DNA of 21,780 bases from a virus: IMG/VR virus record IMGVR_UViG_3300034198_023477, positions 1 through 21,780 of that record. One strand, written 5' to 3'. Shown here one piece after another: positions 3,872 to 21,780 of the stretch (its first letter is position 1; every line of letters begins with the position of its first letter). The position numbers and the translations under genes are program-made. Under the pieces are notes generated by a model. That model saw nothing but the letters and a program-made list of their open reading frames with translations, did no database searches and was not told the origin of the DNA.

Positions 3872-3872
3872 T

Positions 3873-6316: not shown

Positions 6317-7198
6317 TTAATAATTCGATCTTGTTAACATAAACTGCTCGGACGATTCATCATAACCCTTTGATAAAAGGTAGCTTCTATAGTCAGAAAC
6401 CAGGGTAGGCATGTAGAGGTTGGTGGCATTTTTTGCTAGTTCTAGCTCTTTTCCTGGGTCAACAACTGATTCCCCAACCTCACTATTTGGGGTTCCATGG
6501 CTGTACCAGCCAAGATAAGAGTATCTTTCTCCATCCTCTACTGGCTTGACTTCATGTGCTGCCATAAAATTAGAAGGGAACATCAATAGATCACCTTTTT
6601 TTGGTTTTACATTTATATCTAAATAATTAAAATAATGATGGCCTCCAACAAAATTTGTGCCATCTAACTCCTCTACAGTGTCAACGCAAGAGGTTAGGTA
6701 GAATACATTGCTTATTGTATTTCTAGTCGCGAGTTGGTCTTTAGGTGTCCAAACGTCATATATGTAATCTGCACTAACATCGGAATGGCTGCCCAAATAA
6801 ACATCCTTCTTGTACTGAACTATGTGTCCCTTAACCTTCCACCATACGCATTTAAATGCCAAAGGGAACAGTTCAAAATACTTGAGCAAATACTTATCTT
6901 TTGATTCTTCTACAAAATCAAATATTTCTTTTATCTTTTCGTCACTATATCTATGTATCGCTGATCCTCTTCCTGGCATTTGGTCAATACTATCTTTGCC
7001 AAAAAAGTACCCACTTTTATTAAGGTAGATTTCATCGCCGGTTTCTGGATCTACAGCGGGGACATACATTTCTTCTTTTTCTTTATTAATAGCGTCTCTA
7101 CTAAACCCTCTAATGTAATCCCAATCAATATCGATTGCTGATTCAAATAGAACTACACCGCCACCCAGATGCTTTGCATCAACGTCATTGAATTTCAT
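6317..7198 (-). CDS. 2OG-Fe(II) oxygenase, tandem paralogue 2
   Basis: This 293-residue 2OG/Fe(II) oxygenase has ligands H138 and D140 (GSHSD) and H215 (AAHEV), with R225 (GERYSY) placed to bind 2-oxoglutarate. The family-specific WWKVKGHI motif lies at 119-126 and NFVGGH at 182-187, and the barrel ends with YLGWYSHGTP. A C-terminal extension of about 55 residues (YMPTLVSDYRSYLLSKGY) is also found, in a related form, in the next paralogue upstream. It may be a substrate-recognition or dimer helix. GGAAG lies six bases before the ATG, and the start overlaps the upstream gene by 14 bases, so expression is probably coupled. No key residue is missing, so it is predicted to be active, on an unknown substrate. 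Confidence 0.9.
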   Translation of the reverse strand: MKFNDVDAKHLGGGVVLFESAIDIDWDYIRGFSRDAINKEKEEMYVPAVDPETGDEIYLNKSGYFFGKDSIDQMPGRGSAIHRYSDEKIKEIFDFVEESKDKYLLKYFELFPLAFKCVWWKVKGHIVQYKKDVYLGSHSDVSADYIYDVWTPKDQLATRNTISNVFYLTSCVDTVEELDGTNFVGGHHYFNYLDINVKPKKGDLLMFPSNFMAAHEVKPVEDGERYSYLGWYSHGTPNSEVGESVVDPGKELELAKNATNLYMPTLVSDYRSYLLSKGYDESSEQFMLTRSNY

Positions 7199-8099
7199 GG
7201 TTTACTTCCTTTAGTGTATTAGCGCTATTATACATTCTTTTGGTTGCCTGGAGCAAATCGCCATAAAAATCTTCAGGCTTATCGGGGTATTTATTGTATA
7301 TATATTCTTTATATTCTTCAACTATCTCTGGCATCCATATTTGACCCTGTTTTCCAACAGGTAGATCCCCATTAATTAATTGTATGCCTCTTTCTATGTG
7401 CTCCGAACCATGAGAATAATAACCAATATAGGCATATCTTCCACCTTCGTAACATTCCTTAACCTCGTGTGAGGCAATGAAGTTGGATGGAAACATTAGT
7501 AAATCTCCTGCTTTTGGAGAATAATCAACATCACAATACGGGAACATTATATGTCCGCCAAGATATTCGTCTTTTATAATTTCTTCTTTTGAATCTACAG
7601 ATGTATTAAAATACAAGATAGACCCCAAAACACTTCTAGTTGCCACTTGAAGATCTGGTTCGAATCCAGGCTGGTAGTTAACATCATTGTCACTATGGAG
7701 ACCCATGTCGCTCCCTGGGCCATATGCTAATATATGCCCCTGAGTTCTCCACCATATACTTGGAAGAGCCATCGGATATATCTCAAGGTATTGAAGAAGG
7801 CACTGCCTAAAAGCTCTTTCGCATTCAATAAAAAACAATTCTATTTTATCAGAATCATTATTATCTAAAAAATTCATAATGTGGCTAGAGCTTTTTTCTA
7901 TATCCTCTATTGCATATCTATGCCCACTTCTATTTATGGCATATACACTTTCATTGCGTTCATTTTTAATTATCGTATAATCTTCTTCTACTGCCTTTTG
8001 CTTTAATGATTTTATGAAAGGTATTATCTCAGGGTATTCTTCCATGTTGATAACATTTTGGAATAGGACAATTCCAGTTCCTAATTTTTCTATTTTCAT
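7185..8099 (-). CDS. 2OG-Fe(II) oxygenase, tandem paralogue 3
   Basis: This 304-residue 2OG/Fe(II) oxygenase has ligands H135 and D137 (GLHSDND) and H211 (ASHEV), with R221 (GGRYAY) as the likely 2OG anchor. It carries the shared WWRTQGHI motif at 116-123 and YLGGH at 179-183. It is closest to the paralogue that follows it: both contain LLMFPSNF before the distal histidine and GxYSHG after the barrel, and both have the extra C-terminal helix (WMPEIVEEYKEYIYNKY). Together these indicate that this pair arose by a later duplication. The gap to the preceding gene is four bases and no strong ribosome site is seen. Confidence 0.9.
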   Translation of the reverse strand: MKIEKLGTGIVLFQNVINMEEYPEIIPFIKSLKQKAVEEDYTIIKNERNESVYAINRSGHRYAIEDIEKSSSHIMNFLDNNDSDKIELFFIECERAFRQCLLQYLEIYPMALPSIWWRTQGHILAYGPGSDMGLHSDNDVNYQPGFEPDLQVATRSVLGSILYFNTSVDSKEEIIKDEYLGGHIMFPYCDVDYSPKAGDLLMFPSNFIASHEVKECYEGGRYAYIGYYSHGSEHIERGIQLINGDLPVGKQGQIWMPEIVEEYKEYIYNKYPDKPEDFYGDLLQATKRMYNSANTLKEVNHEIQ

Positions 8100-8103
8100 A
8101 ATA

Positions 8104-9201
8104 TTAGATTCTTACAGCTTCAGTACCGCATGGTCCTTCTGGTAGATCTTCGGATACAGTATCAGCTTTAGCTTCTTCAACCTCAACCGCATCGTGTGAT
8201 GCGCTGTACTGTGCGACTTCTCTTCCTTGGTAAACTGGGTTCCAACCAACTTCTACATTGTTTTTTCCTGGATCAGAAAAAATAGAATATGGAGATTTGC
8301 AATACATTTCGTAATCATCATATATATTATTCAACCAAACAGGAGGACACCATTGGAAACTTTCATCTGGTTCAACTATCATAATATTTGCGCTCTTATC
8401 ATTTGCGCCTTGACCAAAAAAAGTTAAATAACTATATCTAACACCCTTACCCATAGTCTCTACATCGTGGGACGCGACGTAATTTGTTGGGAAGAATATT
8501 ATGTCACCTTTTCTTGGCTTATAAGAAATTCCCAAATGAACAAACCTAAGATGTCCGCCTGTAAAATTTCTTCCATTTAATTCTTCTTCAGAATCTACGC
8601 AATCATTTAGGTAAATTAAAGCACCGCATGTTTGTCTTGATGCGACCATACCCTTTGGCATATACCTAACGCCTTTTGTCACCTTATAATTAGTATCATT
8701 ATCTGCGTGACAACCAAGTCTTCCCCCATCTCCATAGCGCAATATATGGCCTCTTGTCTTCCACCATATGCTACCAAGCATCAGGGGGTAGTGGTCTATA
8801 TACTTTATTAGACACTTGTATATTTGGTCTTCCAAAATGTATAGAAACTCTTCTACTTCTTTAGGCGTAGATTCGTTTACCGGGTCAAGCAATCTTATTG
8901 GCGCTGCTGGTACGTCTTCCATCCTATACCTAAAGCCATCTTCATTGATGCCCATTTTTACGCCATCAACCTCAACATATTCCCATCGGGTTTTGTGTGC
9001 TTCTTCTGCATTAGAATCAATATGCGTTAGCACTGCGTCCTGATCTATCTGAAAAGCGTTTCTAAAAACCACGACACCTGGGCCAAGAATTTCGCATTCA
9101 ATTGTGGATATTTCTTTTACAGTGTCCTCATTAAGGGGTGGGCTAGAGGGGAACGCTACATCTCTAATTTGGGAATTTTCTGACTCTATATTGTAGCTCA
9201 T
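8104..9201 (-). CDS. 2OG-Fe(II) oxygenase, tandem paralogue 4, with N- and C-terminal extensions
   Basis: This is the longest of the four tandem 2OG/Fe(II) oxygenases, at 365 residues from ATG 9201. Ligands are H165 and D167 (GCHADND) and H245 (ASHDV), with R255 (GVRYSY). WWKTRGHI lies at 146-153 and NGRNFTGGH at 209-217. About 35 residues precede the shared core, and a tail of about 75 acidic residues follows residue 290 (containing VEVEEAKADTVSEDLPEG). I chose ATG 9201 because it overlaps the stop of the preceding gene as ATGA with GGAG upstream; a longer frame from 9237 would overlap that gene by 40 bases. It is the first of the four in transcription order and may be the ancestral copy. 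The acidic tail suggests a protein partner, but that is speculative. Confidence 0.9.
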   Translation of the reverse strand: MSYNIESENSQIRDVAFPSSPPLNEDTVKEISTIECEILGPGVVVFRNAFQIDQDAVLTHIDSNAEEAHKTRWEYVEVDGVKMGINEDGFRYRMEDVPAAPIRLLDPVNESTPKEVEEFLYILEDQIYKCLIKYIDHYPLMLGSIWWKTRGHILRYGDGGRLGCHADNDTNYKVTKGVRYMPKGMVASRQTCGALIYLNDCVDSEEELNGRNFTGGHLRFVHLGISYKPRKGDIIFFPTNYVASHDVETMGKGVRYSYLTFFGQGANDKSANIMIVEPDESFQWCPPVWLNNIYDDYEMYCKSPYSIFSDPGKNNVEVGWNPVYQGREVAQYSASHDAVEVEEAKADTVSEDLPEGPCGTEAVRI

Positions 9202-10113: not shown

Positions 10114-10143
10114 ATTATATCACCTATTATTGTTTAATGACAA
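10114..10143 (-). promoter_or_regulatory. Strong promoter, apparently for a leaderless mRNA
   Basis: On the minus strand, TTGTCA (10138-10143) is a five-of-six match to the -35 consensus. It is followed after 18 bases by TATAAT (10114-10119), which is preceded by TGA to give an extended -10. Six bases separate the TATAAT from the ATG at 10107, so the normal start point would be the A of the start codon. The -35 box lies within the end of the upstream methyltransferase-fold gene. Confidence 0.7.
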
Positions 10144-10867
10144 CTGTAACCCCATAAAACAAAGGTATGTGATACATGTTGCAGTCTTTTCTTGACTTTA
10201 TCTCATTGTGATACTCCCAAACAGGAGATGCCTGAGTATCATTTTGGTAAAGAAAAATGCTATCTGATGAATTTTGGATCACTAGAATCCCACCTGTATT
10301 TAATCTATCAAGATAAAAATGTACAGGCACAAAGGGATTCTCCATGTCCTGTGACCATCCCACAATCATATCAAACATATAATTATTGCAATTGTCTTTT
10401 TCTAGATCCTGATGGCTAACAACATCATATTCTATTGGAGTATTTTCTTTTTGGAACTTTTCATACATTGCTGTTTTTTTATTATTCAACATATATATAT
10501 TAGACCCGTAGATATCCTGAAAAGGCTTCAATCTAAATCTATCTAGCCCCCCCGACAATGCCAGTATATTCTTGCCTCTACTAATATCCATTAGCATCTG
10601 AATTAATAGTATCGGCATCCACTGAGATTGACCGTATGAGTCAGCTAAATTTGGTCTTGGGTAATGTATAACAAATTCATAATCACTGGCCCCGCCAGTA
10701 GCTATATTTCTTCTATCTACACCAACTGTATTAAATAAATAATCAGAAATTGCTACTGACTCTGGTCCATCTTTTTTCGTAGACTCATTAGCATATGATC
10801 GCCAATCATATTCCCAGCTAGTAAAATCAAAAGATAACTGTGGTTCATACTTTTTATCACCCGACAT
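10127..10867 (-). CDS. Methyltransferase-fold protein of the duplicated cassette, copy A
   Basis: This 246-residue protein starts at ATG 10867, which has GAGG six bases upstream; an earlier in-frame ATG at 10900 would deepen the overlap with the preceding gene. The second half looks like a class I SAM-methyltransferase fold: NILALSGG at 100-107 is in the place of the SAM-binding glycine loop, followed by YDVVSHQDL, FDMIVGW and LNTGGILVIQN, with a final strand GVTVVIKQ. The glycine loop does not match the usual GxGxG, so SAM binding is uncertain. It is a paralogue of the gene ending at 17559: both share an N-terminal YL-D-R/K-IA-G region, a QD segment, an LN-GG or LNKNG turn and an ending C-x-YH-P. 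Each copy starts 11 bases inside the gene for a helical partner. Confidence 0.7.
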   Translation of the reverse strand: MSGDKKYEPQLSFDFTSWEYDWRSYANESTKKDGPESVAISDYLFNTVGVDRRNIATGGASDYEFVIHYPRPNLADSYGQSQWMPILLIQMLMDISRGKNILALSGGLDRFRLKPFQDIYGSNIYMLNNKKTAMYEKFQKENTPIEYDVVSHQDLEKDNCNNYMFDMIVGWSQDMENPFVPVHFYLDRLNTGGILVIQNSSDSIFLYQNDTQASPVWEYHNEIKSRKDCNMYHIPLFYGVTVVIKQ

Positions 10868-11138
10868 TTTGCACCTCGTACGAAGCAACTTGCACATCAA
10901 ACCAAGCTCTTCTAACTCCCCTATTTAAAACAATACTTTGTTTTTTAACGTATTCTTGAACCGCTATATTGTAATCTGGATGGCTGTGTTTGTACACGTA
11001 TCTATTCCTAATAAGATTTATAACATCATCTATTTTGGTAGATTCAAAATCATGTTCATCAATTCCAAGAATAAACAAAAAAGATGCCAAGTGTTGGGAA
11101 CGGTGCTCCAGATCTTCTAGCGGCCTATACTTATTCAT
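10857..11138 (-). CDS. Small helical protein of the duplicated cassette, copy A
   Basis: This 93-residue, mostly helical protein starts MNKYRPLEDLEH and contains ILGIDEHDFESTKIDDVINL and, near the end, RGVRRAWFDVQ. I do not recognise a named family. It aligns clearly with the 99-residue product at 18247-18546: the same opening (M-x-x-Y-x-x-x-x-DLE), the same I-G-x-x-x-x-x-x-x-I-D-x-x-I-N-x-x-R-N core and the same IRRxW or VRRAW motif. I prefer ATG 11138, which follows a GAAG sequence. A longer frame from 11204 would overlap most of the preceding small gene. Its gene overlaps the methyltransferase-fold gene by 11 bases, as in the other copy, suggesting that the two products work together, perhaps as a complex. 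Confidence 0.7.
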   Translation of the reverse strand: MNKYRPLEDLEHRSQHLASFLFILGIDEHDFESTKIDDVINLIRNRYVYKHSHPDYNIAVQEYVKKQSIVLNRGVRRAWFDVQVASYEVQNVG

Positions 11139-11325
11139 CTTCTTTTTTTTCTTCCTTAAACATTGCAACACCTTGACACATGCTGACCGGTTTGCCGGCA
11201 ACATAATATATCCCAGTCGCAGAGTCCCACTCTATAATTTCGTTGTCCCAGTCTGGGGTATCAGTTATAGATTCCCCTTGTCTTGTTTCCATTCCAAAAC
11301 TATTTGGCTCACCTATACTACTCAT
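11131..11325 (-). CDS. Small acidic protein of the duplicated cassette, copy A position
   Basis: This 64-residue acidic protein begins MSSIGEPNSFGMETRQ and ends in a charged, Lys- and Glu-rich tail. A central strand pair reads IYYVAGKPVSM, and it contains a single cysteine. It has no recognisable domain, signal peptide or membrane helix. It lies two bases after the 69-residue gene and overlaps the helical gene by 8 bases. A 68-residue gene occupies the same slot in the second cassette, but I see no convincing sequence similarity between them. It could be a small subunit, an adaptor, or a substrate peptide for the enzymes of the island. The frame is supported by tight packing with its neighbours rather than by homology. 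Confidence 0.55.
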   Translation of the reverse strand: MSSIGEPNSFGMETRQGESITDTPDWDNEIIEWDSATGIYYVAGKPVSMCQGVAMFKEEKKEDE

Positions 11326-11327
11326 AA

Positions 11328-11537
11328 TTAAACTATTTTCCTATAAGAAACTATCTCATCTATAAGACAATTAAATGCGTTGTGCTGAGGAAGGCTTTCG
11401 CTAAATGGATTTTTTGAATCTTTATTTAAATTTTCATAGTTTACATCCAGCAGCAAGCTTAAAGTCTGTATTGATTTTTCCAAGAAAGATTTAGCTTGAT
11501 CTTTAGCTTTTTGTGAATCGTAATTATTGAGTTGCAT
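11328..11537 (-). CDS. Very small helical protein of the duplicated cassette, copy A
   Basis: This 69-residue protein is mainly one or two helices. Residues 10-35 (KAKDQAKSFLEKSIQTLSLL) form an amphipathic helix. The same pattern, AKDxAxxxLxxSIxxLSxLI, begins the 52-residue product at 18739-18897, so the two are paralogues. Copy A has a C-terminal half rich in Asn, His and Ser that copy B lacks. It opens a transcription unit: AAAGGAGA stands six bases before the ATG, and TGGTATAAT lies about 23 bases before it. It contains one cysteine and no membrane segment. Function is unknown. The conserved placement before a helical protein and a methyltransferase-fold protein suggests a regulatory or substrate role. 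Confidence 0.65.
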   Translation of the reverse strand: MQLNNYDSQKAKDQAKSFLEKSIQTLSLLLDVNYENLNKDSKNPFSESLPQHNAFNCLIDEIVSYRKIV

Positions 11538-11559
11538 ACTTGTCTCCTTTGTCTTTTTA

Positions 11560-11568
11560 ATTATACCA
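11560..11568 (-). promoter_or_regulatory. Extended -10 promoter of cassette copy A
   Basis: The minus strand reads TGGTATAATTA, an extended -10 (TGn plus perfect TATAAT), in the 33-base gap after the 2OG oxygenase gene. The same eleven bases, preceded by TG, occur before the di-iron oxygenase gene. No strong -35 box is visible (best TTACAA at 19 bases). The predicted leader carries AAAGGAGA. Confidence 0.65.
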
Positions 11569-11570
11569 CA

Positions 11571-12335
11571 TCAGCTATTGGTTTTTGTAATGGCAAAAAA
11601 TCCTTGTGAAACAAAACGATCACCAGATAAAACTGGTGTTACCTCATGTGCCATATCTTCATGGGAAGAATGGGTAAAAATAAGAAGCGAATTTGCTTTA
11701 GGTTTAAGCTTAAAGCCCATCAGCGGCATATTGAATTCGCCGCCCTCGTAATCGTCATTGATGTAATACACGCTAGAATACTGTGTAATGGCGTCCCTGT
11801 TATGTATAAACGTTCCGTCACAGTGCATATTCATATAGCCACCTTCTCTAGCTACCGCTATCCAAGGGCCACTTTCACTGAAACAATCTTCGCCATATAC
11901 TTCTTTTACTATACTTACGACACCAGACAGGTAACCGCTTATAATGTCAAATGTTTTATTTTGCAGTAAGCTATTTGGCCATTTAGAATGGTGCATGAGT
12001 GCAGTTACAGGTGGCTCTTCCTCAATCTTTTGGATCTCTTCTACCGACATCACATAGTTGTCGCCATGCTTTGTATCGTTTGGATAAGGCTCCGGTATTT
12101 CACCCTTCATGTATAGATCGTATTCTTCTTCTGAAATTAAAAAAGAACGAATATATTTAATATCTGGATTTTTAGAATGCTCCTCTATCTTCCATCTAAC
12201 CGGAGAACCGTAACCGACATATGGAAATTTTTCTTTATTATCTCTACAATACTTATCTACAACTTCCCAATCTTCCTTTGGTAGAAAATCGGTAAATACA
12301 ATTATTCTCGGCTTATACATTCTTTCCACCTTCAT
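11571..12335 (-). CDS. 2OG-Fe(II) oxygenase, prolyl-hydroxylase-like
   Basis: This 254-residue 2OG/Fe(II) oxygenase has ligands H171 and D173 (MHCDG) and H230 (AHEVT), with R240 (GDRFVS) as the probable 2OG contact. YYINDDYEGGEF at 190-201 is the typical strand of prolyl-4-hydroxylase-type enzymes, and LKPKANSLLIF precedes the distal histidine. The N-terminal 110 residues are unlike those of the four tandem oxygenases, so it is a separate lineage. It is the last gene of the operon containing the di-iron oxygenase, radical SAM and GT32 genes, and is coupled to the 122-residue gene by a 4-base ATGA overlap. A second in-frame ATG 15 bases later has GGTGG before it and could also start the protein. 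The substrate is unknown. Confidence 0.9.
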   Translation of the reverse strand: MKVERMYKPRIIVFTDFLPKEDWEVVDKYCRDNKEKFPYVGYGSPVRWKIEEHSKNPDIKYIRSFLISEEEYDLYMKGEIPEPYPNDTKHGDNYVMSVEEIQKIEEEPPVTALMHHSKWPNSLLQNKTFDIISGYLSGVVSIVKEVYGEDCFSESGPWIAVAREGGYMNMHCDGTFIHNRDAITQYSSVYYINDDYEGGEFNMPLMGFKLKPKANSLLIFTHSSHEDMAHEVTPVLSGDRFVSQGFFAITKTNS

Positions 12336-12700
12336 CTAACCTTAAACCCACCACATGATTCTAAAAATAATAGCACATATTTGATGTCAGATCCATTTAA
12401 AATTGGACAACAAACTTCTCTGTGCCACGGCATGTGTGAATAGGGGATGTCTTCTTTGTAAAGTTCATTTATAAAATAATCAAAGTTATCAAGATTTGAT
12501 TTTATATTTTCCGATAATAATATTGCTTCCTCACTGGACAATTCAACTTGATCATTTGTCATCCAGGACGAAATTTCTAAATCAGAGATTATATTAAAAT
12601 AGCTAATCATTCTGACAAACTCATACCATTTCCAAATATTTAATCTGACACACAGCCCCACTGCGGATGTTGGACTCTTGCCTATCATCTCATAAGCCAT
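12332..12700 (-). CDS. Conserved small protein of unknown function
   Basis: This 122-residue protein opens with GKSPTSAVGLCVRLNIWKWY and ends with SDIKYVLLFLESCGGFKVR (each shown here as a short core). I recall a widespread hypothetical family with a similar plan: GKxPTSxxGxYFRxNxWxW at the start, an acidic ALxLAExL helix in the middle and FLxxCGGFxI at the end. The middle helix here is SSEEAILLSENIKSNL. That comparison is from memory, and no function is known to me. Cys residues at 17, in a CC pair near 98 and at 116 are scattered, not a clear metal site. It has GGGGGTG before its ATG, lies 6 bases after the radical SAM gene and overlaps the 2OG oxygenase gene by 4 bases. Confidence 0.6.
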   Translation of the reverse strand: MAYEMIGKSPTSAVGLCVRLNIWKWYEFVRMISYFNIISDLEISSWMTNDQVELSSEEAILLSENIKSNLDNFDYFINELYKEDIPYSHMPWHREVCCPILNGSDIKYVLLFLESCGGFKVR

Positions 12701-12706
12701 ATACTT

Positions 12707-13729
12707 TCACCCCCACACTGCGTTGCAACATTTTTTACACATTGTTTCTAATGATCTTTTAATTGTTTCAATATGTTCTTTGCTAAACCAAATTTCACTT
12801 AATTCTTTATTTTGTAATGAACCAAAAACATACTCATAGTCATAATCGTTACAACATATAAATGTTTCTCCTAGCGAATTTACATGCACCCAACCGTACA
12901 ATCTTCCGTCTTCTCCTAGGTTACAATCTTTAACTTCTTTTTTTGAATATTTATTTATTTGTATAAGTTTATTATTATCTATTATTTTTTCTTTAGATAA
13001 AAATCCAGAACGATCAGTTAAATTTGGAGAAGAATAAACCGTTAAACCATCAAACATTTTTTTAGCCATTTTTATTTGATTAAAAGATTCACCATATTGC
13101 GAGATGTCAATGCTAGGTGCATTTTTTCCTAGCGATAAACTGTCTACGGACTGCTCATTGGGTATATTAACTCCAACACATATTTTTTTTTCCTTTACCA
13201 TTTCTGGAAAAACTTTCATTAAATTAATAATATTTTTTCTTAAATCTTCAAATGATTTATTTTTTATTCCTGATCTTTCTTTCCAAAGGCTTTCTTCAAA
13301 AGCTGGTATGTTTAAATAAATGCCAGCTATTGTGTTTTCATATTTTTTTAATATTTCAATTTTTTTTTCAGTAAAATTTGTTCCATTAGATAAAATTGAT
13401 GTTTTTAGATTATATTTTTGAGCTGTATTTAACATTTCTTCTAAATATTTATACAATAAGATTTCATTATAATGTGCTGTATAAAAATGATTAAAATTAG
13501 TAGAAACAATTCCATTAAGTTTTTCTTTTTCATGCACTATGTTTTGAATTATTTTTTCAAATAAATCTGGACTCATATGCTTTGCGGTACGCGCAGGCAT
13601 TTTTCTATATGCCACAGGGCAAAACCAACATTTTGCGTTACAATAGCCAAAAGGATCTATCTGTAAATTAGTTATTTTATTTGTTTTTAATTTTTTAAGA
13701 ATATCTTCATCAAACATTCCAGCCACCAT
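12707..13729 (-). CDS. Radical SAM enzyme with SPASM-like C-terminal cysteines
   Basis: This 340-residue protein has the radical SAM signature CxxxCxxC at C30, C34 and C37 (GYCNAKCWFCP), which binds a 4Fe-4S cluster and cleaves S-adenosylmethionine to a radical. The TIM-barrel region contains the usual LKTSILSNGTNF strand near 108-120. The C-terminus has more cysteines: C269, C292, C293, C331, C334 and C335 around GETFICCND and MCKKCC. These match a SPASM-type auxiliary cluster domain, common in enzymes that modify peptides or sugars. ATG 13729 overlaps the GT32 gene by 20 bases; ATG 13717 (Met5) has a better ribosome site. The gene is very AT-rich, with long T runs on the plus strand. Its substrate may be a product of the same operon. 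Confidence 0.85.
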   Translation of the reverse strand: MVAGMFDEDILKKLKTNKITNLQIDPFGYCNAKCWFCPVAYRKMPARTAKHMSPDLFEKIIQNIVHEKEKLNGIVSTNFNHFYTAHYNEILLYKYLEEMLNTAQKYNLKTSILSNGTNFTEKKIEILKKYENTIAGIYLNIPAFEESLWKERSGIKNKSFEDLRKNIINLMKVFPEMVKEKKICVGVNIPNEQSVDSLSLGKNAPSIDISQYGESFNQIKMAKKMFDGLTVYSSPNLTDRSGFLSKEKIIDNNKLIQINKYSKKEVKDCNLGEDGRLYGWVHVNSLGETFICCNDYDYEYVFGSLQNKELSEIWFSKEHIETIKRSLETMCKKCCNAVWG

Positions 13730-14444
13730 GACCTGTTTTGGTATAAATTTTAATATCTGTTTTTGAATCTTTTATAATTGAACTATATATTTCATTTAAA
13801 TAAGAAAAATCAAAACCCCATTTAACATCATTCCAAGTAGTCGACCCAAAAATTTGTAAAACAGATTCTTTATTATTAACTGGATAATTAAACTCGCATA
13901 AACTAATGTCCGACATGTCGCATCCGTCATCCATATATTTATCCATTGCTTCACTAAATGCTAACGGTCCACAATCTTCAACCGTTATTGGTTCTGCATC
14001 CTTATCTTTACATCTTTTATACAAAAGATCTTTTAATTTTGTTATAAACTTTCCTTTAGGTTCGCTAGCAAAAATTGAAGTATTTATCCACCCATGTGTT
14101 TTTGGAAAACCAGCTTCACAAATAAAGTCTTTATTTAAATCTAAAAAAGAATCTATACCAGACAGACATATCGTATCCATGTCTGCGTATATACCACCGT
14201 ATTCGTATAGGCATAAGACTCTCCACATGTCTGCTTGAAAAACTTGCGACTGGCATTGCTTATAGAAGTTAAGCCAATCTTCCCCAAAAATATTATATAT
14301 AAAAGATTCTCTTTCAAAATGGTTTACATAATTATGGGTATAATCTTTATTCTGCTCAATCCAAGATAGCATGGGGCCCTTAGCAAAGAGAGGGAGATCT
14401 TCAATTAAATAACTATGGGTTTGCCATATTATTTTTGGTATCAT
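13710..14444 (-). CDS. GT32-type glycosyltransferase (DXD sugar-binding motif)
   Basis: This 244-residue protein begins MIPKIIWQTH, the opening typical of GT32/OCH1-like (Gly_transf_sug) glycosyltransferases. It contains the core ADMWRVLCLYEYGGIYADMD at 71-90, where D88 and D90 form the metal- and nucleotide-sugar-binding DxD motif. It has no membrane segment, so it is probably a soluble enzyme of the infected cell that transfers a sugar to a glycan, small molecule or protein. It lies 6 bases after the methyltransferase gene without a clear ribosome site. The end of the protein (KTGHGGWNV) overlaps the radical SAM gene. In phages such enzymes often decorate virions or DNA, but the acceptor cannot be determined here. 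Confidence 0.88.
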   Translation of the reverse strand: MIPKIIWQTHSYLIEDLPLFAKGPMLSWIEQNKDYTHNYVNHFERESFIYNIFGEDWLNFYKQCQSQVFQADMWRVLCLYEYGGIYADMDTICLSGIDSFLDLNKDFICEAGFPKTHGWINTSIFASEPKGKFITKLKDLLYKRCKDKDAEPITVEDCGPLAFSEAMDKYMDDGCDMSDISLCEFNYPVNNKESVLQIFGSTTWNDVKWGFDFSYLNEIYSSIIKDSKTDIKIYTKTGHGGWNV

Positions 14445-14450
14445 AATATT

Positions 14451-15116
14451 TTAAACCTTTTTAAATTTTACAATTATTGAATCTGCTTTAAAATTTGATT
14501 CGTAAGAGTTCACCTTGTAATACATTATATCTTGTATTGTTTTGTTTTTTTCTAATTCTACAAAAATTTCTTTAAAGTTATCATGAATAAAATGGTCTTC
14601 TTTTATTGATATAACTGCTATACCTTGTGATTTTAAATAAATTAATAAATTAATTAAATCACTAGAACCAAGATGACCAAGAGTAAATGTTCCAGAACTT
14701 ATAAAGTAATCATAATAACTTTCTAGCATTAACTTTGGGCTAGTTAAGTCGTCTACCATCATCCAATCATATACAGGTAAAAAATTTTTTCTTCTCTTTA
14801 AAGAAGCTATCCTTATCATTGAAGAAGATATATCAACGCCCTCAATCCAAAGATTATCATCAATAAAAGACAGGCTTTCACCCAATAATCCGGTACCACA
14901 ACCTATGTCTAATATGCTATTTTTTTTTGTTTCACTATAATTACTATTAGAAACGTACTTAAAAAATACTTCGGATACTTTTTCTGGCAAGATGTAGTTT
15001 ACGTCTTTTGCATAACTATCATATTCATCCGCCCAATCATTATAATATCTCTTTAGATCTTCAGAGCTTTCATAGGAATAAACTCTATCTACATTATAAT
15101 CATTAGGTGTTTTCAT
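14451..15116 (-). CDS. Class I SAM-dependent methyltransferase
   Basis: This 221-residue protein has a typical SAM-binding motif I, ILDIGCGTGLLGE at 68-80 (G72, G74, G76), followed by EGVDIS, the acidic end of strand 2 that binds the SAM ribose. The N-terminus DLKRYYNDWADEYDSYAKD is the cap helix seen in UbiE/WBSCR27-like small-molecule methyltransferases. The core is complete, so it is probably active, transferring methyl to O, N or C of a small molecule or sugar. It lies two bases after the di-iron oxygenase gene and just before the GT32 gene in one operon, so the substrate may be a sugar-containing metabolite. It is distinct from the two methyltransferase-fold proteins of the duplicated cassettes, which lack the GxGxG loop. 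Confidence 0.9.
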   Translation of the reverse strand: MKTPNDYNVDRVYSYESSEDLKRYYNDWADEYDSYAKDVNYILPEKVSEVFFKYVSNSNYSETKKNSILDIGCGTGLLGESLSFIDDNLWIEGVDISSSMIRIASLKRRKNFLPVYDWMMVDDLTSPKLMLESYYDYFISSGTFTLGHLGSSDLINLLIYLKSQGIAVISIKEDHFIHDNFKEIFVELEKNKTIQDIMYYKVNSYESNFKADSIIVKFKKV

Positions 15117-15118
15117 AA

Positions 15119-16228
15119 TTAGTAACTATGTATAAAAGCTGAAAACTCCTCTTCAGAATCTCCAAGGTTTTCAAATTCTATTGTTCCCATTTCTTCAAAT
15201 TTTCTACGCAACCAAGCACCGTTTCTATCTAGCAACCCTAGCTTGCTAAGGTTTGGGACAATCTTAGCCGCAAGCATCTTTCTAATCCAAGCCTGTGCTG
15301 GATCGTTCAATAAGAACGGGGCAATGTCTTTTGTCTTAACACCCATCTTTTCGTATACCTCTTGTTGCAGCATTCGCTCCCCAAGCTTTATGCTAGCTTC
15401 ATAGGCAAGCTGCTGACGCTCCATAATCTCTGAATCGGTCATTTCCGCATAGATCTCCTTGAGTGAGATAATACCAAATGAAACATGACGCGCTTCGTCA
15501 GCCATAACATTACGCAACAATTGCTTCAACAACGGTTCATTTGTTAATTCACGCATATACGCCATCGATGCAAGGCCGAGCCCCTCAACCATAATCTGCA
15601 TTCCTAGATAGGTTATATCCCAACGATTGTCGGCAATAGTATCGTCAACCAAGCCTTGGATATGCCAGTTAAAAGGAAGTGTTCCACCCAATTTTTCATT
15701 AGTATACTTTGCAAAAACTTCAACATGTCGAGCTTCATCTACGACTTGTGTTGCAGCAAAAAGTTTGCCATCGTACCATGGACATGTTTGTGTTAGTTTT
15801 GCAGAACAAATCAGAGCACCTTGCTCTCCGTGTATGAACTGTGAGATCATCCACCTTCTGCTTTCTAAGCCAAATTGCAGCCATTCTTTATCGCCCCAAT
15901 TTTCTATAGGGCTACCCTCATAGGCTGACATCTCTCTAGTCGATCCAAAATTTGCATAGTCTTCAGCTACAGACTTTTCTATATCAACAGGAGTAGACCA
16001 GTCTAATGCAGTTTCTCCATTCCATTGATTATTTTTAGCTTTTTCGTAAAGCTTTCTTAATTGTGTGCGAGCTAAAGAATAATCCCAAGTAAACATTATA
16101 TCAAAATTAGTTTTAACAACATGGTCAACCGCAGCAAAATCCACTTCTGGGGCATTGATGATAGGCTCTATGTCATTAATCTTTATATTGCCTATGAATT
16201 CTTTGTAAGTTTCTTTTGTTACAGTCAT
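15119..16228 (-). CDS. Ferritin-like di-iron oxygenase
   Basis: This 369-residue helical protein has two ExxH pairs in DEARH motifs (E165/H168 and E245/H248) and single Glu ligands E135 (GEQG) and E215 (VEGLGLA). That is the E-(ExxH)-E-(ExxH) set of carboxylate-bridged di-iron oxygenases and R2-like ferritin-superfamily enzymes. All six ligands are present, so O2 activation is likely. Its length is compatible with N-oxygenases of the AurF type or an actinobacterial ferritin-like oxygenase, but it is not a ribonucleotide reductase small subunit, because I see no matching partner. AGGGAGA lies five bases before the ATG, and a strong extended -10 lies upstream, so it leads its operon. Its base composition is clearly richer in G+C than the following genes, which suggests more recent acquisition or selection for high expression. 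Confidence 0.85.
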   Translation of the reverse strand: MTVTKETYKEFIGNIKINDIEPIINAPEVDFAAVDHVVKTNFDIMFTWDYSLARTQLRKLYEKAKNNQWNGETALDWSTPVDIEKSVAEDYANFGSTREMSAYEGSPIENWGDKEWLQFGLESRRWMISQFIHGEQGALICSAKLTQTCPWYDGKLFAATQVVDEARHVEVFAKYTNEKLGGTLPFNWHIQGLVDDTIADNRWDITYLGMQIMVEGLGLASMAYMRELTNEPLLKQLLRNVMADEARHVSFGIISLKEIYAEMTDSEIMERQQLAYEASIKLGERMLQQEVYEKMGVKTKDIAPFLLNDPAQAWIRKMLAAKIVPNLSKLGLLDRNGAWLRRKFEEMGTIEFENLGDSEEEFSAFIHSY

Positions 16229-16248
16229 AAAAATCTCCCTAAATAATA

Positions 16249-16257
16249 ATTATACCA
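16249..16257 (-). promoter_or_regulatory. Extended -10 promoter of the di-iron oxygenase operon
   Basis: The minus strand reads TGGTATAATTA, identical to the promoter before cassette copy A, in the 60-base gap after the preceding 2OG oxygenase gene. The -35 region (TTTAAA at 17 bases) is poor. The leader would be about 14 bases and carry AGGGAGA. Confidence 0.65.
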
Positions 16258-16288
16258 CAATAATAGTAGTATTTAAAAACTTATTTCC

Positions 16289-16885
16289 TTACCTATTTGG
16301 CACCCTATATTCCGACCAATCTGCGGTAGGGTTAGTGTTCGGTGTTTTAGGACTAAAGTTTGCACTTACGACAACTCTTTTTTCTTCGGAATATTGCCTA
16401 TTTGTCATATGAGGAATGTAAGAATTAAATATCAACAACATTCCTGTCTCTGTTTTGATTGAAGTTGCTCTCTCTATTGTGTTACAGTGTGTGGTAACAA
16501 ATATTAGATCTGCGCTATCTTCTGGTGCGCTTACATAGTATGAAACAGAATAGTATTCTTCTGGATAAAGCTGAGTATTTACTTTGTGTGTGTGGCTTAA
16601 AACAGACTGGCCTTTTTCTAGAGTTATAGTCCAGATAGAGTCCATAACCATATCTGAGCCAGTAAAATGATTGACAGAATTAGTTATTTCATCAACTAAC
16701 TTCATTGATTCTGGTTGACCAAAAGGATAGAGCTTATCTTCGTAAAAAGTATGAGCTGGTGATGGATCTTTTACATTTGGTGTTGTGTCAAATTTTTCTA
16801 TTTCTTTCAATAACTTGTCGTTATCAATATTTTTCAAAAAAGTTTTACATATACTTAATGTAAATAAATCAATTTTTTCATTCAT
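16289..16885 (-). CDS. 2OG-Fe(II) oxygenase, HxH...H type (PF13759-like)
   Basis: This 198-residue protein, from ATG 16885, has a beta-helix oxygenase core: IWTITLEKGQ, then H98 and H100 (SHTHK), the strand YYSVSYYVSAPEDSADLIF, then GMLLIFNSYIPH with H159, and R170 (EKRVVVSANF). The HxH in place of HxD, and the pattern up to the RVVVSxNF ending, recall the putative 2OG-Fe(II) oxygenases of the PF13759/TIGR02466 type, many of which occur in phages. I prefer ATG 16885 because GGTGA lies eight bases before it; a GTG at 16897 has no ribosome site. The gene overlaps the upstream oxygenase gene by 8 bases and is the last of its operon. Activity is likely, but HxH enzymes of this group are little characterised and the substrate is unknown. 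Confidence 0.8.
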   Translation of the reverse strand: MNEKIDLFTLSICKTFLKNIDNDKLLKEIEKFDTTPNVKDPSPAHTFYEDKLYPFGQPESMKLVDEITNSVNHFTGSDMVMDSIWTITLEKGQSVLSHTHKVNTQLYPEEYYSVSYYVSAPEDSADLIFVTTHCNTIERATSIKTETGMLLIFNSYIPHMTNRQYSEEKRVVVSANFSPKTPNTNPTADWSEYRVPNR

Positions 16886-17555
16886 AATAAAATTCACCAG
16901 TTTTTAAAGCTGATGGTGGATTATCTTTATGCCACACATTTACTACGACAACTTTTCGAACACCTTTAATCGGTGGAGTTGTGTTATGTATCACGTGTCC
17001 AGCATCAAAAATTATTAGCCTATTTGGCTTACAAGATATTCTTTCTCTTAATTCTATTGGAACTATTAAATGATTTATATTTTCTTTTTCTAAAGCGTTA
17101 GCTGTATCTTCTGAAATAGCTGTAGGATGCATCTCTAAAAATCCACCAACCACATCATTGGTGTGCGGATAATATACACAACCTATTCTTGGTCCTCTAA
17201 ATATTTTTTTATCTGCGTAAAGAAATGTATCTTCATCTACGTGAGTATCAAGAAATTGTCCAGGCTTAAAAGTTCTAGTCCAATACTCAAAACCGCAAAC
17301 GTCCTCTACTGGAAATGGAAGATTGTTTTCCCATATTTTTTTAATTAATCTTTTTCTTGGAGTATTAGCTTCAGATTTTAACCAACCATCCCAAAACATA
17401 TATGGCGCAAAACAATCGCATTGTCCATCATGGTAACCGTTTAAGACGGTAGCTATTTTTTCTTCGTCGCCCATTGATTCTGGAAAGAAATTTGGAGTTA
17501 ACTCTATTTCTTCTAATAAATTTTTATCTTTTATGAAATCATCTATAATAATCAT
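16878..17555 (-). CDS. 2OG-Fe(II) oxygenase
   Basis: This 225-residue 2OG/Fe(II) oxygenase has ligands H105 and D107 (DTHVDED) and H190 in GHVIHNTT, with R200 (GVRKVVVVNVW) ten residues later as the 2OG contact. H187 lies nearby, but the spacing to R200 favours H190. A Trp-rich segment (FWDGWLK near 54-60) and a conserved FKPGQFLD precede the HxD loop. It differs in sequence from the four tandem oxygenases and from the prolyl-hydroxylase-like ones, so it represents a third lineage. It follows the second methyltransferase-fold gene by three bases, placing it directly downstream of cassette copy B, and it overlaps the next oxygenase gene. No key residue is lost. The substrate may be the cassette's product. 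Confidence 0.88.
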   Translation of the reverse strand: MIIIDDFIKDKNLLEEIELTPNFFPESMGDEEKIATVLNGYHDGQCDCFAPYMFWDGWLKSEANTPRKRLIKKIWENNLPFPVEDVCGFEYWTRTFKPGQFLDTHVDEDTFLYADKKIFRGPRIGCVYYPHTNDVVGGFLEMHPTAISEDTANALEKENINHLIVPIELRERISCKPNRLIIFDAGHVIHNTTPPIKGVRKVVVVNVWHKDNPPSALKTGEFYYE

Positions 17556-17558
17556 CTT

Positions 17559-18257
17559 TTATAAACTAACTGCATAAGTAACAGCTGCTCCTGTAGGGTT
17601 ATGATAAACGCATGAATTTTTAATATTAATTAAATTTCTGTGAACTTCATAAAAATCAGTATATATTGATCCATTTTTATAAAGCTGATCAGTGCCAGTA
17701 TATAGCATCATCATTGTTCCATTTTTGTTTAATAAATTAAAAAAATCTATAACTAAATCTGGATCATGGATAACGTCATGAATGCTCATACATATGAAAT
17801 CATAGTAGCCACCATTGCCAGATTGTACATCCTGCATTGTAACAGTGTCGTAAGACCACGGTTCATCACCTATATAGTACTCAAATAAATGTAGTTGATA
17901 GTTATTTAATAAAGAAAGCTTTGATTTCTTCTCCATTAATCTCGCTAAACCAGTATTAAAAGCCGGGAGTGTCATTAGCGAAGTTTTTGGATTAGCTGTT
18001 AGAAAACCAAATTCATGCGTATTAGCCGCATAGAAGTAGGCAGGATTGACATTCCAAAAATGACTTTCTTTACTAAAGACATCAAAATACCAAATCATAA
18101 AATCCATACCAGCAGCTATTTTTCTTTTATCTATAGAAAAAGCCTCTAAGTATTCATTTATTATTTTACTTTTTGATATAGAATCTTCAACTGATTCGAT
18201 ATCATTGTATTTTATTAATTTAACTAAATTATCAAAATAATCTATTTCATACTGCAT
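17559..18257 (-). CDS. Methyltransferase-fold protein of the duplicated cassette, copy B
   Basis: This 232-residue protein is a paralogue of the one ending at 10127. Shared features include INEYLEAFSIDKRKIAAG near 33-50, TMQDVQ at 140-145, YYDFICMSIHD with the loop LNKNGTMMMLYTG near 176-188, and CVYHNP plus AVTYAV near the end. This half looks like the C-terminal part of a class I methyltransferase fold. The place of the SAM glycine loop (SLMTLPAFNTG near 93-103) is not glycine-rich, so it may have lost SAM binding or bind another ligand. I chose ATG 18257, with GGAG nine bases upstream, over an in-frame TTG at 18272. The start lies 11 bases inside the helical gene, the same overlap as in copy A. 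The reduced motif I in both copies argues for a shared role that is not simple methyl transfer. Confidence 0.7.
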   Translation of the reverse strand: MQYEIDYFDNLVKLIKYNDIESVEDSISKSKIINEYLEAFSIDKRKIAAGMDFMIWYFDVFSKESHFWNVNPAYFYAANTHEFGFLTANPKTSLMTLPAFNTGLARLMEKKSKLSLLNNYQLHLFEYYIGDEPWSYDTVTMQDVQSGNGGYYDFICMSIHDVIHDPDLVIDFFNLLNKNGTMMMLYTGTDQLYKNGSIYTDFYEVHRNLINIKNSCVYHNPTGAAVTYAVSL

Positions 18258-18546
18258 TTTTGATTGCTCCAATTGCTAACTGTCGCATGTACCAAATTCT
18301 TCTAATGTTTCCAATTAAAGATATTCTTTGGTTTTTTAAAAATAAATAAAGAGGATCATTTGAAAGATCCATGGAGCCTGACTCAACTTCGCTTATAGGA
18401 GCTATTGATATATTTCTTGCAGAATTTATTATTTGGTCTATTGAATACTCGTCAATATTTTTAGGATTTAAACCAATTATATATAAATATAAATATAATT
18501 GCTCATTAATATATTCTAAGTCTTTTTCCGCATTGTAGGTTTTCAT
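18247..18546 (-). CDS. Small helical protein of the duplicated cassette, copy B
   Basis: This 99-residue helical protein begins MKTYNAEKDLEYINEQ and contains IIGLNPKNIDEYSIDQIINSARN and, near the end, GNIRRIWYMRQL. These match the copy A protein at 10857-11138 block by block (DLE, I-x-G, ID-x-I-IN, RN, RR-x-W). A middle insertion of about eight residues with Ser, Glu and Asp (VESGSMDLSND) is the main difference. It overlaps the upstream 68-residue gene by 4 bases and the methyltransferase-fold gene by 11, so the three are probably translated together. It has no cysteines and no membrane helix. The pairing with a methyltransferase-fold protein in two independent copies is the best clue that they form one functional unit. 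I do not recognise a named family. Confidence 0.7.
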   Translation of the reverse strand: MKTYNAEKDLEYINEQLYLYLYIIGLNPKNIDEYSIDQIINSARNISIAPISEVESGSMDLSNDPLYLFLKNQRISLIGNIRRIWYMRQLAIGAIKNAV

Positions 18547-18749
18547 ATTAGATCATCCACAGATGGAGATAATGGGAGTATCACATACTTATTCATTTCA
18601 GCAAATACTTCAGTCAAAACATACTCCCTTGTTGTCCCGCCATTTGGCATTATGATATTTTGATCTTCATCAGAATAAACAGGGATAGCATCGTCCATCG
18701 TTTCCGTAAATTCATGTATTAATTCTTCACTGATTTGTCTAGGCTCCAT
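18543..18749 (-). CDS. Small acidic protein of the duplicated cassette, copy B position
   Basis: This 68-residue acidic protein has an N-terminal helix (SEELIHEFTETMDD), a GGTTREYVLTEVFAEM segment and an end of PLSPSVDDLI. It has no cysteines and no recognisable domain. AAGGA lies eight bases before its ATG, and the gene begins 11 bases inside the 52-residue gene. It occupies the slot held by the 64-residue gene in copy A, but the two sequences do not align convincingly, so either they diverged strongly or the slot was refilled. Tight overlap with genes on both sides supports it as a real gene. Its role could be structural, regulatory or as a substrate. Confidence 0.55.
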   Translation of the reverse strand: MEPRQISEELIHEFTETMDDAIPVYSDEDQNIIMPNGGTTREYVLTEVFAEMNKYVILPLSPSVDDLI

Positions 18750-18897
18750 CTTTAATTTCCTTCAAAGCGTTTTTTTGGTTTAACAAAGATTGTTCTGCGT
18801 TTTTTACTAAAGAATCAAAATTTGATTTTTTTATTAATTCAGACAAATGCTTAATAGAGTTATCTAAATAAATTATTGCTTTATCTTTTGCGTTCAT
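18739..18897 (-). CDS. Very small helical protein of the duplicated cassette, copy B (52 residues)
   Basis: This short frame, from ATG 18897 to TAG at 18739, encodes 52 residues: MNAKDKAIIYLDNSIKHLSE, then LIKKSNFDSLVKN, then a charged helical tail ending KEIKDGA. The first 28 residues align with residues 12-38 of the 69-residue copy A protein through AKDxAxxxLxxSIxxLSxLI, which is strong evidence that it is real despite its size. It is linked by ATGA to the DUF6065-like gene and overlaps the 68-residue gene by 11 bases. It has no ribosome site, so translation is probably by coupling. The protein is basic and helical with no membrane segment. It is easily missed by gene callers with a length cut-off. 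Confidence 0.65.
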   Translation of the reverse strand: MNAKDKAIIYLDNSIKHLSELIKKSNFDSLVKNAEQSLLNQKNALKEIKDGA

Positions 18898-19598
18898 AAA
18901 CTTGGTTCATCTAACTTTGGTAAACCGGTAAAACTTGGTCCGATTTTATTGCCGTCTGCATCAACGCCAGTTCTTATTCCTTTTGTCCATGTCCAAGGAT
19001 TTTCTTGATTATTTTTCATTTTCATATCGCCATATTTTTGCCTAGAGTTCATTAGCTCTGGTTTGTCCCACAAATTTTCTACTTTGAATTCTACGTTATT
19101 TGTAACTGTGCTATCAAAAATATTAAAAAACATAAAGGGCATCCCTGCTTCAAAGACAACTGGTTCCCCAATTTTATTTATCATCCAATTCATTTGGAAT
19201 TCATCTGGCCACCAGCTGCTCGGTATTATTGCCGACAAAGGAGAAGCTCCATCTACCATGTAATTTGGAGAACCTCCAATTGAGGTTTCATAACCGTCTT
19301 CAGTACCGAATGCCCATCCAGTAGAAAAGGAAACCATTCCAATGATTCCACCGTAAGCTATTTGTCTACCCTTGTACTCTGCGCCTTCAAGGATCTTAGG
19401 TACTGTATTGCCGCCATCCCACTGAGCGACAACATCTTGCGGCAAGATCAATTCCCAGCCATAAACGTTTGCATACGTCATAGGCAAACACTGGTAGGCA
19501 TGCTTGTTATAGGTGTTGTCCATCCACTCACGCTTTATTCGTGACTGGCGTATTTCTGGTGCATCTTGAGTTGTCTTTGTTAAGGTAACTTTAGTCAT
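18894..19598 (-). CDS. DUF6065-like protein
   Basis: This 234-residue protein contains REWMDNT near 23-29 and AYQCLPMTYANVYGWE near 34-49, a pattern I recognise as that of the DUF6065 family of uncharacterised proteins. The centre is rich in Trp, Gly and Pro (GWAFGTEDGYE, SSWWPDEFQMNWMI). The C-terminus (QENPWTWTKGIRTGV) keeps aromatic clusters, consistent with a compact beta-rich fold that could bind an aromatic or sugar ligand. The family assignment is from memory of the motif. The gene is coupled to the peroxidase-like gene before it (ATGA) and to the 52-residue gene after it (ATGA). Its place between a redox-fold protein and the cassette suggests a role in the same pathway. There is no known activity to assign. 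Confidence 0.7.
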   Translation of the reverse strand: MTKVTLTKTTQDAPEIRQSRIKREWMDNTYNKHAYQCLPMTYANVYGWELILPQDVVAQWDGGNTVPKILEGAEYKGRQIAYGGIIGMVSFSTGWAFGTEDGYETSIGGSPNYMVDGASPLSAIIPSSWWPDEFQMNWMINKIGEPVVFEAGMPFMFFNIFDSTVTNNVEFKVENLWDKPELMNSRQKYGDMKMKNNQENPWTWTKGIRTGVDADGNKIGPSFTGLPKLDEPSL

Positions 19599-21711: not shown

Positions 21712-21780
21712 CTATTTAAATACTGGCGGGAAGTACGGTGGGAAAAACGGTGGGAAAAACGGTGGGAAAAACGGTGGGAA
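21712..21780 (-). CDS. C-terminal end of a proline-rich repeat protein, cut by the window edge
   Basis: The minus strand stays open from base 21780 to TAG at 21712-21714 and encodes 22 residues: FPPF three times, then FPPY, FPPV and FK. The gene continues beyond the window, so only the end of the protein is visible. Four-residue aromatic-proline repeats of this kind occur at the ends of some phage structural proteins as I remember them, but the parent protein cannot be identified. The periodicity, the regular codon use within the repeat and a stop codon just before a convergent terminator support a real coding end. The repeat is rich in proline beside a prolyl-hydroxylase-like gene, which makes it a candidate substrate. 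Confidence 0.6.
   Translation of the reverse strand, partial: FPPFFPPFFPPFFPPYFPPVFK
21723..21780 (+). repeat. 12-base tandem repeat
   Basis: The unit ACGGTGGGAAAA occurs at 21735, 21747 and 21759, with a fourth truncated at 21771 by the window end. A degenerate copy lies at 21723-21734. Read on the minus strand the unit encodes Phe-Pro-Pro-Phe, so the repeat is in frame with the partial gene. Nearly identical units suggest recent expansion by slippage or recombination. Confidence 0.9.

Follow-up and report, generated by a model that had tools for sequence, protein, structure and literature searches.

Two copies of a four-gene cassette in a freshwater phage

The 21,780-base virus record IMGVR_UViG_3300034198_023477, called the window below and always meant at its full length, carries two copies of a cassette of four short genes. 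All eight genes lie on the minus strand, and their slot order (slots 1 to 4) is identical in copy A and copy B. A reading-frame check places each gene where the original prediction for this DNA had it, with the same lengths and order (Table 1). The largest protein, slot 4, has a predicted methyltransferase fold in both copies; A4 carries SGGLD, a non-canonical sequence, at the S-adenosylmethionine (SAM) loop and LNN at the end of strand 2, and in B4 the SAM loop is replaced by NTGL. Below, we describe the homology of the two copies, the altered cofactor site of slot 4, the linkage of the cassette in related viruses and its setting beside 2-oxoglutarate (2OG) oxygenases and a proline-repeat tail protein, and we weigh what the cassette may do.

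Homology of the two copies

Judged by pairwise and profile comparison, slots 1, 3 and 4 are homologous between the copies, and slot 2 keeps position and approximate size only. Local alignment scores of the single sequences, compared with 2000 shuffles per slot, are 105 for slot 3 (null 26.9) and 103 for slot 4 (null 35.4), with 0 of 2000 shuffles as high in either case. Slot 1 scores 53 (null 27.3, standard deviation 5.3; 1 of 2000 shuffles as high), and slot 2 scores 21 against a null of 21.9, a chance-level result that 1146 of 2000 shuffles equal. Comparison of profiles built from families collected in related contigs gives probabilities of 97.7% for slot 4, 97.9% for slot 3 and 97.0% for slot 1. 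Since the effective sequence numbers of these families are small, the homology of slot 1 rests on shuffle and cross-slot controls: its profile score of 53.6 compares with at most 13.4 in column shuffles (n = 60) and 10.6 to 16.0 in cross-slot pairs (n = 4). The similarity of three slots out of four that the original prediction had claimed is thus borne out well above controls, and the lack of significant profile similarity between paired slots, which it had named as grounds for refutation, did not appear in slots 1, 3 and 4.

Homology of slot 2 between A and B is rejected at present sensitivity, as the profile comparisons return no similarity (probabilities of 0.1% and 0.06%) and the two share no common motif. 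The slot 2 of a third cassette type, type C, forms a weak bridge to B2 (score 25.6; the highest of 100 column shuffles scores 19.9), and in profile comparison this bridge does not reach A2.

A predicted methyltransferase fold without the canonical SAM motif

Structure prediction gives A4 and B4 alike a class I methyltransferase fold. The AlphaFold2 model of A4 has a predicted local distance difference test score (pLDDT) of 75.5 and a predicted template modeling score (pTM) of 0.80, with residues 51-80 mostly of low confidence; that of B4 has a pLDDT of 72.9 and a pTM of 0.75, with residues 1-80 mostly of low confidence. Both predicted structures are Rossmann-like, with seven strands in methyltransferase order. 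The top Foldseek matches in the PDB are O-methyltransferases and TrmR, with E-values of 2.5e-8 for A4 and 2.2e-7 for B4. VIA aligns A4 to 8gxn (Z 14.8, 3.4 Å over 187 residues) and B4 to 2hnk (Z 13.6, 3.2 Å over 160 residues). Nearly all of the structural matches listed are titled methyltransferases, and a few lower ones for B4, spermidine synthase among them, are different proteins that share this fold.

The cofactor site departs from this fold's usual sequence. In a survey of 63 distinct slot 4 sequences, with copies truncated by a contig end counted separately, none carries the canonical SAM motif [DE]hGxGxG after strand 1, and all six sequences of F12, a canonical class I methyltransferase family of the same loci that served as internal control, do. 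The abnormal SAM glycine loop that the original prediction had pointed out in both copies therefore extends to all 63 relatives. Type A sequences have SGGLD (23), SGYLD (7) or SGGPD (1) in the loop, and types B and C have NTGL (31) or SVGF (1). Strand 2 of methyltransferases usually ends in an acidic residue. At this place in slot 4, as inferred from the models, 50 of the 63 sequences read LNN, 7 LNS, 3 VNG and 1 VNS, with 2 matching no pattern, so the usual acidic residue is not seen. Cation-dependent O-methyltransferases (COMT/CCoAOMT-like) have an Asp-Asp-Asn metal site; read by eye, the sequence around the corresponding positions shows a Trp and a Gln-Asn in A4 and neither in B4.

The cassette is under purifying selection, which is strong for slot 4. 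Between the window and contig 3300032291_004309 (L007, L040), where the slot 4 proteins are 93% and 94% identical, the ratio of nonsynonymous to synonymous substitution rates (dN/dS), each value from one genome pair, is 0.04 for slot 4 in both A and B. Values for A and B are 0.07 and 0.11 in slot 3, 0.06 and 0.12 in slot 2, and 0.07 and 0.22 in slot 1.

Linkage in related viruses

When IMG/VR was scanned with A4, B4 and alignments of each, type A slot 4 turned up on 38 contigs and type B on 46. Both types occur on 17 contigs, A without B on 21 and B without A on 29; many contigs are fragments, so the two single-type counts are upper bounds. Among the matches listed in a wider profile scan are an A subgroup (loci L104-L114) that is 45-46% identical to A4, and type C (L115-L121 and L135), of which five were inspected.

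A same-type slot 3 lies directly upstream in 49 of 51 distinct slot 4 sequences, the window's two included, and the two without it (L013, L014) start at the edge of the locus sequence. The original prediction would have fallen had this pair never occurred together outside the window; it recurs in nearly every relative. A same-type slot 2 adjoins slot 3 in 47 of the 51, and in L026 and L030 slot 2 is present about 0.7 kb away. No mixing of A and B slots occurs among the 51. The overlap of slots 3 and 4, predicted to be exactly 11 bases, has this length in both window copies but varies in relatives: with program-chosen start codons it is 11 in 30 of 49 distinct pairs, 14 in 7, 8 in 6 and -1 in 4, with outliers of -10 (n = 1, L034, where slot 3 stops early) and -48 (n = 1, L085, a broken frame). 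The phase of the two genes is constant in all 49 pairs except L085, a broken copy. The early stop in L034 (5712-5990) and the division of slot 4 over two frames in L085 (5835-6556) each reflect decay or an assembly error.

The trees bear on how two copies came to stand in one phage. In a slot 4 tree of 36 proteins, A (100/100) and B (96/96) are well supported and C less so (74/71); the branches of A and of B/C are long, and the tree tool warns that their joining is not safe. F4, the 2OG-Fe(II) oxygenase family downstream of copy B, gives a tree (15 rows) in which A-only phages stand apart from phages with B, C or A+B (97/95). F10, a structural-region gene near copy A (window 4240-5139), gives a tree of 7 rows in which four A+B rows, two of them near-identical, split from three B-only rows (100/100). 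Its identity to the window is 70% in the A+B phage G001 and 52-53% in the B-only phages G004 and G007; a search of 9 records detects F10 in 3 of them and in 0 of the 6 that are A-only, several of these six being fragments. Simple tandem duplication in place is not favored as the origin of the A+B state, because a distinct F10 allele lies beside copy A in A+B phages while their F4 groups with B. Support for a single group of the A copies from A+B phages is weak (86/44), and given this value and the long branches between A and B/C, transfer of copy A is a possibility.

The carriers are large freshwater myoviruses, and their hosts are most likely Actinobacteria, as inferred from whiB genes. A 169-kb relative with both cassettes encodes a terminase, a sheath and two WhiB proteins, which together point to a myovirus group, most likely of Actinobacteria. 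PMC6802176 uses whiB likewise for host assignment. The isolate phages E7 and F5 of Nanopelagicales were considered as members of this group and rejected, being 39-kb phages according to PMC10202952. A 634-residue protein of the window (1997-3901) has named matches only in Microbacterium phages (five records, one of them with a masked name), at 33-46% identity over 11-16% of its length.

Relation to described families

The fold of slot 4 is known, and no described counterpart of the whole four-gene unit was found. Among all eight proteins, none reaches a curated Pfam cut-off (best E-value 0.011, B1) and PHROG returns weak matches only (best 0.0017, B1; best 0.0081 for 28 slot 4 sequences). NCBIfam, searched with slots 3 and 4 only, gives nothing above cut-off (best 0.057). 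PADLOC yields for all eight proteins a single weak match, to a cyclase model (E-value 0.015), where absence of a match excludes nothing; a known defense module was considered and has no supporting PADLOC match. A4, B4 and A3, compared with 50,697 named phage records, have no match there, nor do the DUF6065 and F4 proteins among named phage records, and pattern-based scans of GTDB genomes with the slot 4 alignments gave no confirmed member. The best PDB profile match of slot 4 is a tRNA (cmo5U34)-methyltransferase (E-value 0.02), over the loop region. In BFVD, the best structural matches of A4 are four uncharacterized proteins of uncultured Caudovirales, A0A6J5RCS9 (45% identity), A0A6J7X1E1 (32%), A0A6J5M8D5 (22%) and A0A6J5ND78 (19%). 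The literature searched holds no account of the cassette, though searches could not name its slots, and does not mention DUF6065. The family searches in Pfam, PHROG, PADLOC and NCBIfam thus agree with the earlier statement that no named system has this layout. The further suggestion of an undescribed module is supported as well, with two reservations: homology was not detected for slot 2, and the two-copy state occurs only in some phages.

Genomic setting

The place of the cassette is largely fixed (Table 1). F4 lies next to slot 4 in 31 of 31 B/C loci and 19 of 29 A loci, counting distinct loci with 800 bases of downstream sequence, and the 3 kb ahead of slot 4 include a DUF6065 gene in 29 of 29 B/C and 20 of 30 A loci. 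Outside the A+B lineages, the type A exceptions are L029, where F4 was not found, and L032, where DUF6065 was not found. As the gene caller listed no F4 in the A+B phage L100, that F4 copy may be broken. In type C, one or two extra small genes separate DUF6065 from slot 1, and in L098, L101 and L102 a further 2OG gene lies between DUF6065 and slot 1. Small extra proteins of 78-85 residues occur near slot 1 in L116 (4608-5142), L212 (7163-7399) and L207 (3314-3559); by eye they have a common DPDT[FY] pattern and are perhaps distant slot 1 paralogs.

In two loci the interval between DUF6065 and F4 holds something else. Where the cassette would be, L190 (7197-8381) and L225 (8607-9818) encode an unrelated protein of 394-403 residues, accompanied by one or two small proteins of 81-85 residues. 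A fusion of slots was considered for the larger protein and rejected, as it has no profile match to slots 1-4. This conserved place therefore has at least two kinds of occupant, of which the cassette is one.

Table 1. Genes of the two cassettes and their neighbors in the window
Feature	Position	Strand	Basis or remark
A1, slot 1 of copy A, small protein, 69 aa	11328..11537	-	family A5, homologous to B1
A2, slot 2 of copy A, 64 aa	11131..11325	-	family A6; conserved core DWDNExIEWDSxTGxYYVAGKPVxMC
A3, slot 3 of copy A, 93 aa	10857..11138	-	gene end 11 bases into A4
A4, slot 4 of copy A, 246 aa	10127..10867	-	predicted class I methyltransferase fold
B1, slot 1 of copy B, small protein, 52 aa	18739..18897	-	
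B2, slot 2 of copy B, 68 aa	18543..18749	-	conserved core NGGTTxEYVLT
B3, slot 3 of copy B, 99 aa	18247..18546	-	gene end 11 bases into B4
B4, slot 4 of copy B, 232 aa	17559..18257	-	predicted class I methyltransferase fold
DUF6065 gene, immediate upstream neighbor of copy B	18894..19598	-	Pfam E 3.7e-42
F4, 2OG-Fe(II) oxygenase family, immediate downstream neighbor of copy B	16878..17555	-	Pfam 2OG-FeII_Oxy_3 E 3e-4, under curated cut-off
2OG-Fe(II) oxygenase family F7	16289..16885	-	Pfam 2OG-FeII_Oxy_5 E 4.6e-9
2OG-Fe(II) oxygenase-family gene downstream of copy A	5518..6315	-	Pfam and PHROG
2OG-Fe(II) oxygenase-family gene downstream of copy A	6317..7198	-	BLAST group F0
2OG-Fe(II) oxygenase-family gene downstream of copy A	7185..8099	-	BLAST group F0
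2OG-Fe(II) oxygenase-family gene downstream of copy A	8104..9201	-	PHROG (8104-9237)
F12, canonical class I methyltransferase, control	14451..15116	-	Pfam; motif
End (22 codons plus stop) of the (F/Y)FPP-repeat tail protein gene, truncated by the window edge	21712..21780	-	

Structural genes lie in the left part of the window. Among them are a gene for a virion structural protein and one assigned to the sheath by its family, F16, which was identified on the relative L090. Between the two cassettes lie a radical SAM/SPASM gene (12707-13729) and a DXD-type glycosyltransferase gene (13710-14444). A relative of AurF and the R2-like ligand-binding oxidases is encoded at 15119-16228 (Pfam E-value 2.5e-7; NCBIfam E-value 1.4e-8, below cut-off), and its family, F13, is also present in L090, L097 and L100. 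The window further contains two glutathione-peroxidase-like genes.

A proline-repeat tail protein near the oxygenases

The tail protein gene at the right edge of the window ends in (F/Y)FPP repeats, and its last codons, read by eye, give FPPFFPPFFPPFFPPYFPPVFK and then a stop. A complete frame lies in L034 (2162-2542), a near-identical locus. The repeat protein is also seen in L037, L058, L071, L101, L104 and L119, and a PPGFF/PPAFF variant in L051, L063 and L066. At a threshold of six, the frames listed have 7-21 PP[FYWG] units at their C-terminal end. The part ahead of the repeats is a fibronectin type III domain (L101, E-value 1.8e-11) or, at a score below cut-off, PASTA-like; in L119 the repeats are followed by a Peptidase_S74 fiber chaperone (E-value 1.2e-11). 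The repeats are encoded with mixed synonymous codons in the eight genes checked. With its proline-rich units near many prolyl-hydroxylase-like 2OG oxygenase genes, this protein is a candidate hydroxylation substrate.

Among 42 distinct slot 4 loci with at least 4.5 kb of upstream sequence, the repeat gene lies upstream on the same strand in 24, at a distance of 2.9-5.7 kb, and downstream on the same strand in none. The combination of the repeat with 2OG and DUF6065 genes is widespread in IMG/VR. A pattern scan for the repeat found at least 80 loci (L176-L255, 1.0-14.9 kb long); among the 80 listed, 72 have an open frame of at least four repeats, 58 a gene of the 2OG BLAST groups and 40 a DUF6065 gene. 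F4 occurs in 11 of them, slot 4 in 10 and both in 9, the exceptions being L190 and L225, which have F4 and lack slot 4, and L207, which has slot 4 but in which F4 was not detected. By these counts, the repeat protein and the oxygenases are the wider system, and the cassette is an optional element associated with F4.

The start of the repeat gene has a feature of its own, a candidate programmed +1 frameshift (L061:2645, L034:2166, L071:2653 and others). Of 25 distinct starts, 18 can be read on only with a +1 shift at CGG, which is then read as a GGN glycine codon, and 6 are in frame with GGN at that place; the remaining one, L075, has CGG. CGG is used in 0 of 6451 codons in the called window genes of more than 120 residues and 0-1 times in stretches (20 kb or shorter) of six relatives. 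The 169-kb relative, whose own repeat gene reads in frame, uses it in 25 of 46,307 codons.

Proposed function and alternatives

The content, overlap, homology and co-inheritance of the genes, the purifying selection on them, their genomic position and the loss of the canonical motif are matters of observation. Going beyond these, we tentatively propose that the cassette encodes a non-methylating accessory complex of four proteins in a tail-protein modification locus, with slot 4 as a scaffold or binder serving the oxygenases, above all F4; we hold this reading as the likeliest of those considered, though short of an even chance. Because its SAM pocket is rebuilt, slot 4 probably no longer methylates, and it would bind another ligand or a protein instead. 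Slots 3 and 4 are probably made together through coupled translation, and slot 4 probably forms a complex with slot 3 and the small slot 1 and slot 2 proteins. This complex would serve the adjoining 2OG-Fe(II) oxygenases, F4 foremost, for example by presenting the tail protein as a substrate. The two copies in one phage would be old paralogs with separate partners, and slot 2 would likely be the specificity part, being the slot without detectable similarity between A and B. A full virion modification system, in which the prolyl-hydroxylase-like 2OG oxygenases hydroxylate the (F/Y)FPP tip of the tail fiber and the cassettes are exchangeable adaptor complexes around a methyltransferase-fold scaffold, choosing the tail protein or residue that F4 modifies, seems to us quite unlikely.

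Several observations weigh against a cassette that is accessory to the oxygenases. Copy A is not beside F4 in ten type A cases, nine of them from A+B lineages (among these L008, a short contig on which only A is seen) and the tenth L029. The DUF6065 tree (16 rows) does not track cassette types. No repeat gene appears upstream in the available stretch of 18 of the 42 loci, of which some hold an A copy that does not stand at the DUF6065 position, and L101 has its repeat gene about 6 kb off. Slot 4 is not seen in 48 of the 58 listed repeat loci with a 2OG gene, many of which are short. In L190 and L225, which have the repeat region as well as DUF6065 and F4, an unrelated protein stands instead of the cassette.

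Other readings account for parts of the data. The four proteins might be small virion or tail-assembly proteins, either structural parts or chaperones, since the cassette lies between the tail-fiber genes and the sheath gene region and short, overlapping, strongly conserved genes would fit; but no slot has a significant structural PHROG match, the place is taken by the unrelated 394-403-residue protein in L190 and L225, and to our knowledge virion parts do not usually have a methyltransferase fold, so that we find this reading unlikely. About as doubtful, and a shade more so, is methyltransferase activity of slot 4 on a phage or host target, with a SAM loop of unusual form and slot 3 as obligatory partner. 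The predominance of methyltransferases among the structural matches, the weak cmo5U34 profile match over the loop region, and the invariance of one loop glycine and of the Asn-Asn at the end of strand 2 in aligned A and B sequences all speak for activity. They are set against the complete absence of the canonical motif from the 63 relatives and an A loop wholly unlike the B/C loop, which is unexpected for a shared SAM site.

Two further alternatives are less likely still. A tail-independent counter-defense, superinfection or host-takeover module would agree with the changes of type and the absence from some phages, and modules of this kind commonly contain small, overlapping genes without an assigned function; the lone weak PADLOC match and the place beside DUF6065 and F4, fixed apart from the type A copies of A+B phages, make it improbable. 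It is more improbable still that slot 2 is a peptide substrate modified by neighboring enzymes in the manner of ribosomally made natural products. Slot 2 is indeed small and conserved, and the window encodes radical SAM/SPASM, AurF-like oxygenase, glycosyltransferase and methyltransferase proteins, but the radical SAM family F27 occurs in 2 of 8 locus maps (the window and L102), type A slot 2 is conserved in its middle and does not have a leader with a variable core, and A2 and B2 are without a shared motif.

Four linked, undescribed gene families are thereby defined in freshwater phages, and the natural series of phages with A alone, B alone, A+B, C or none offers a route to the function of the cassette. 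In slot 4, strong purifying selection maintains a predicted methyltransferase fold from which the cofactor motif is gone. Should the modification reading be true, the phage would alter its own tail protein post-translationally, which could bear on host range in actinobacteria-rich waters.

Comparison with known systems

Slot 4 shares its predicted fold and order of strands and helices with the branch of cation-dependent O-methyltransferases and TrmR (8gxn, 5zw3, 2hnk). It differs from this branch in the canonical motif, found in 0 of 63 sequences, in having LNN for the usual acid, in its low identity (8-18% by Foldseek) and in its small linked partner genes. In pairs of a catalytic and a pseudo-methyltransferase such as Trm61-Trm6 and METTL3-METTL14, a subunit with a methyltransferase fold and no SAM motif acts as a partner; the constant neighbors of slot 4, however, are DUF6065 and a 2OG oxygenase rather than a catalytic methyltransferase. 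In collagen and viral prolyl hydroxylase systems, 2OG hydroxylases act on a proline-repeat protein with a Gly-X-Y repeat. The phage repeat, a candidate for hydroxylation, is instead (F/Y)FPP, and we know of no counterpart of the cassette in those systems. The likeness lies in the arrangement, as the phage locus too sets prolyl-hydroxylase-like 2OG enzymes beside a proline-repeat surface protein.

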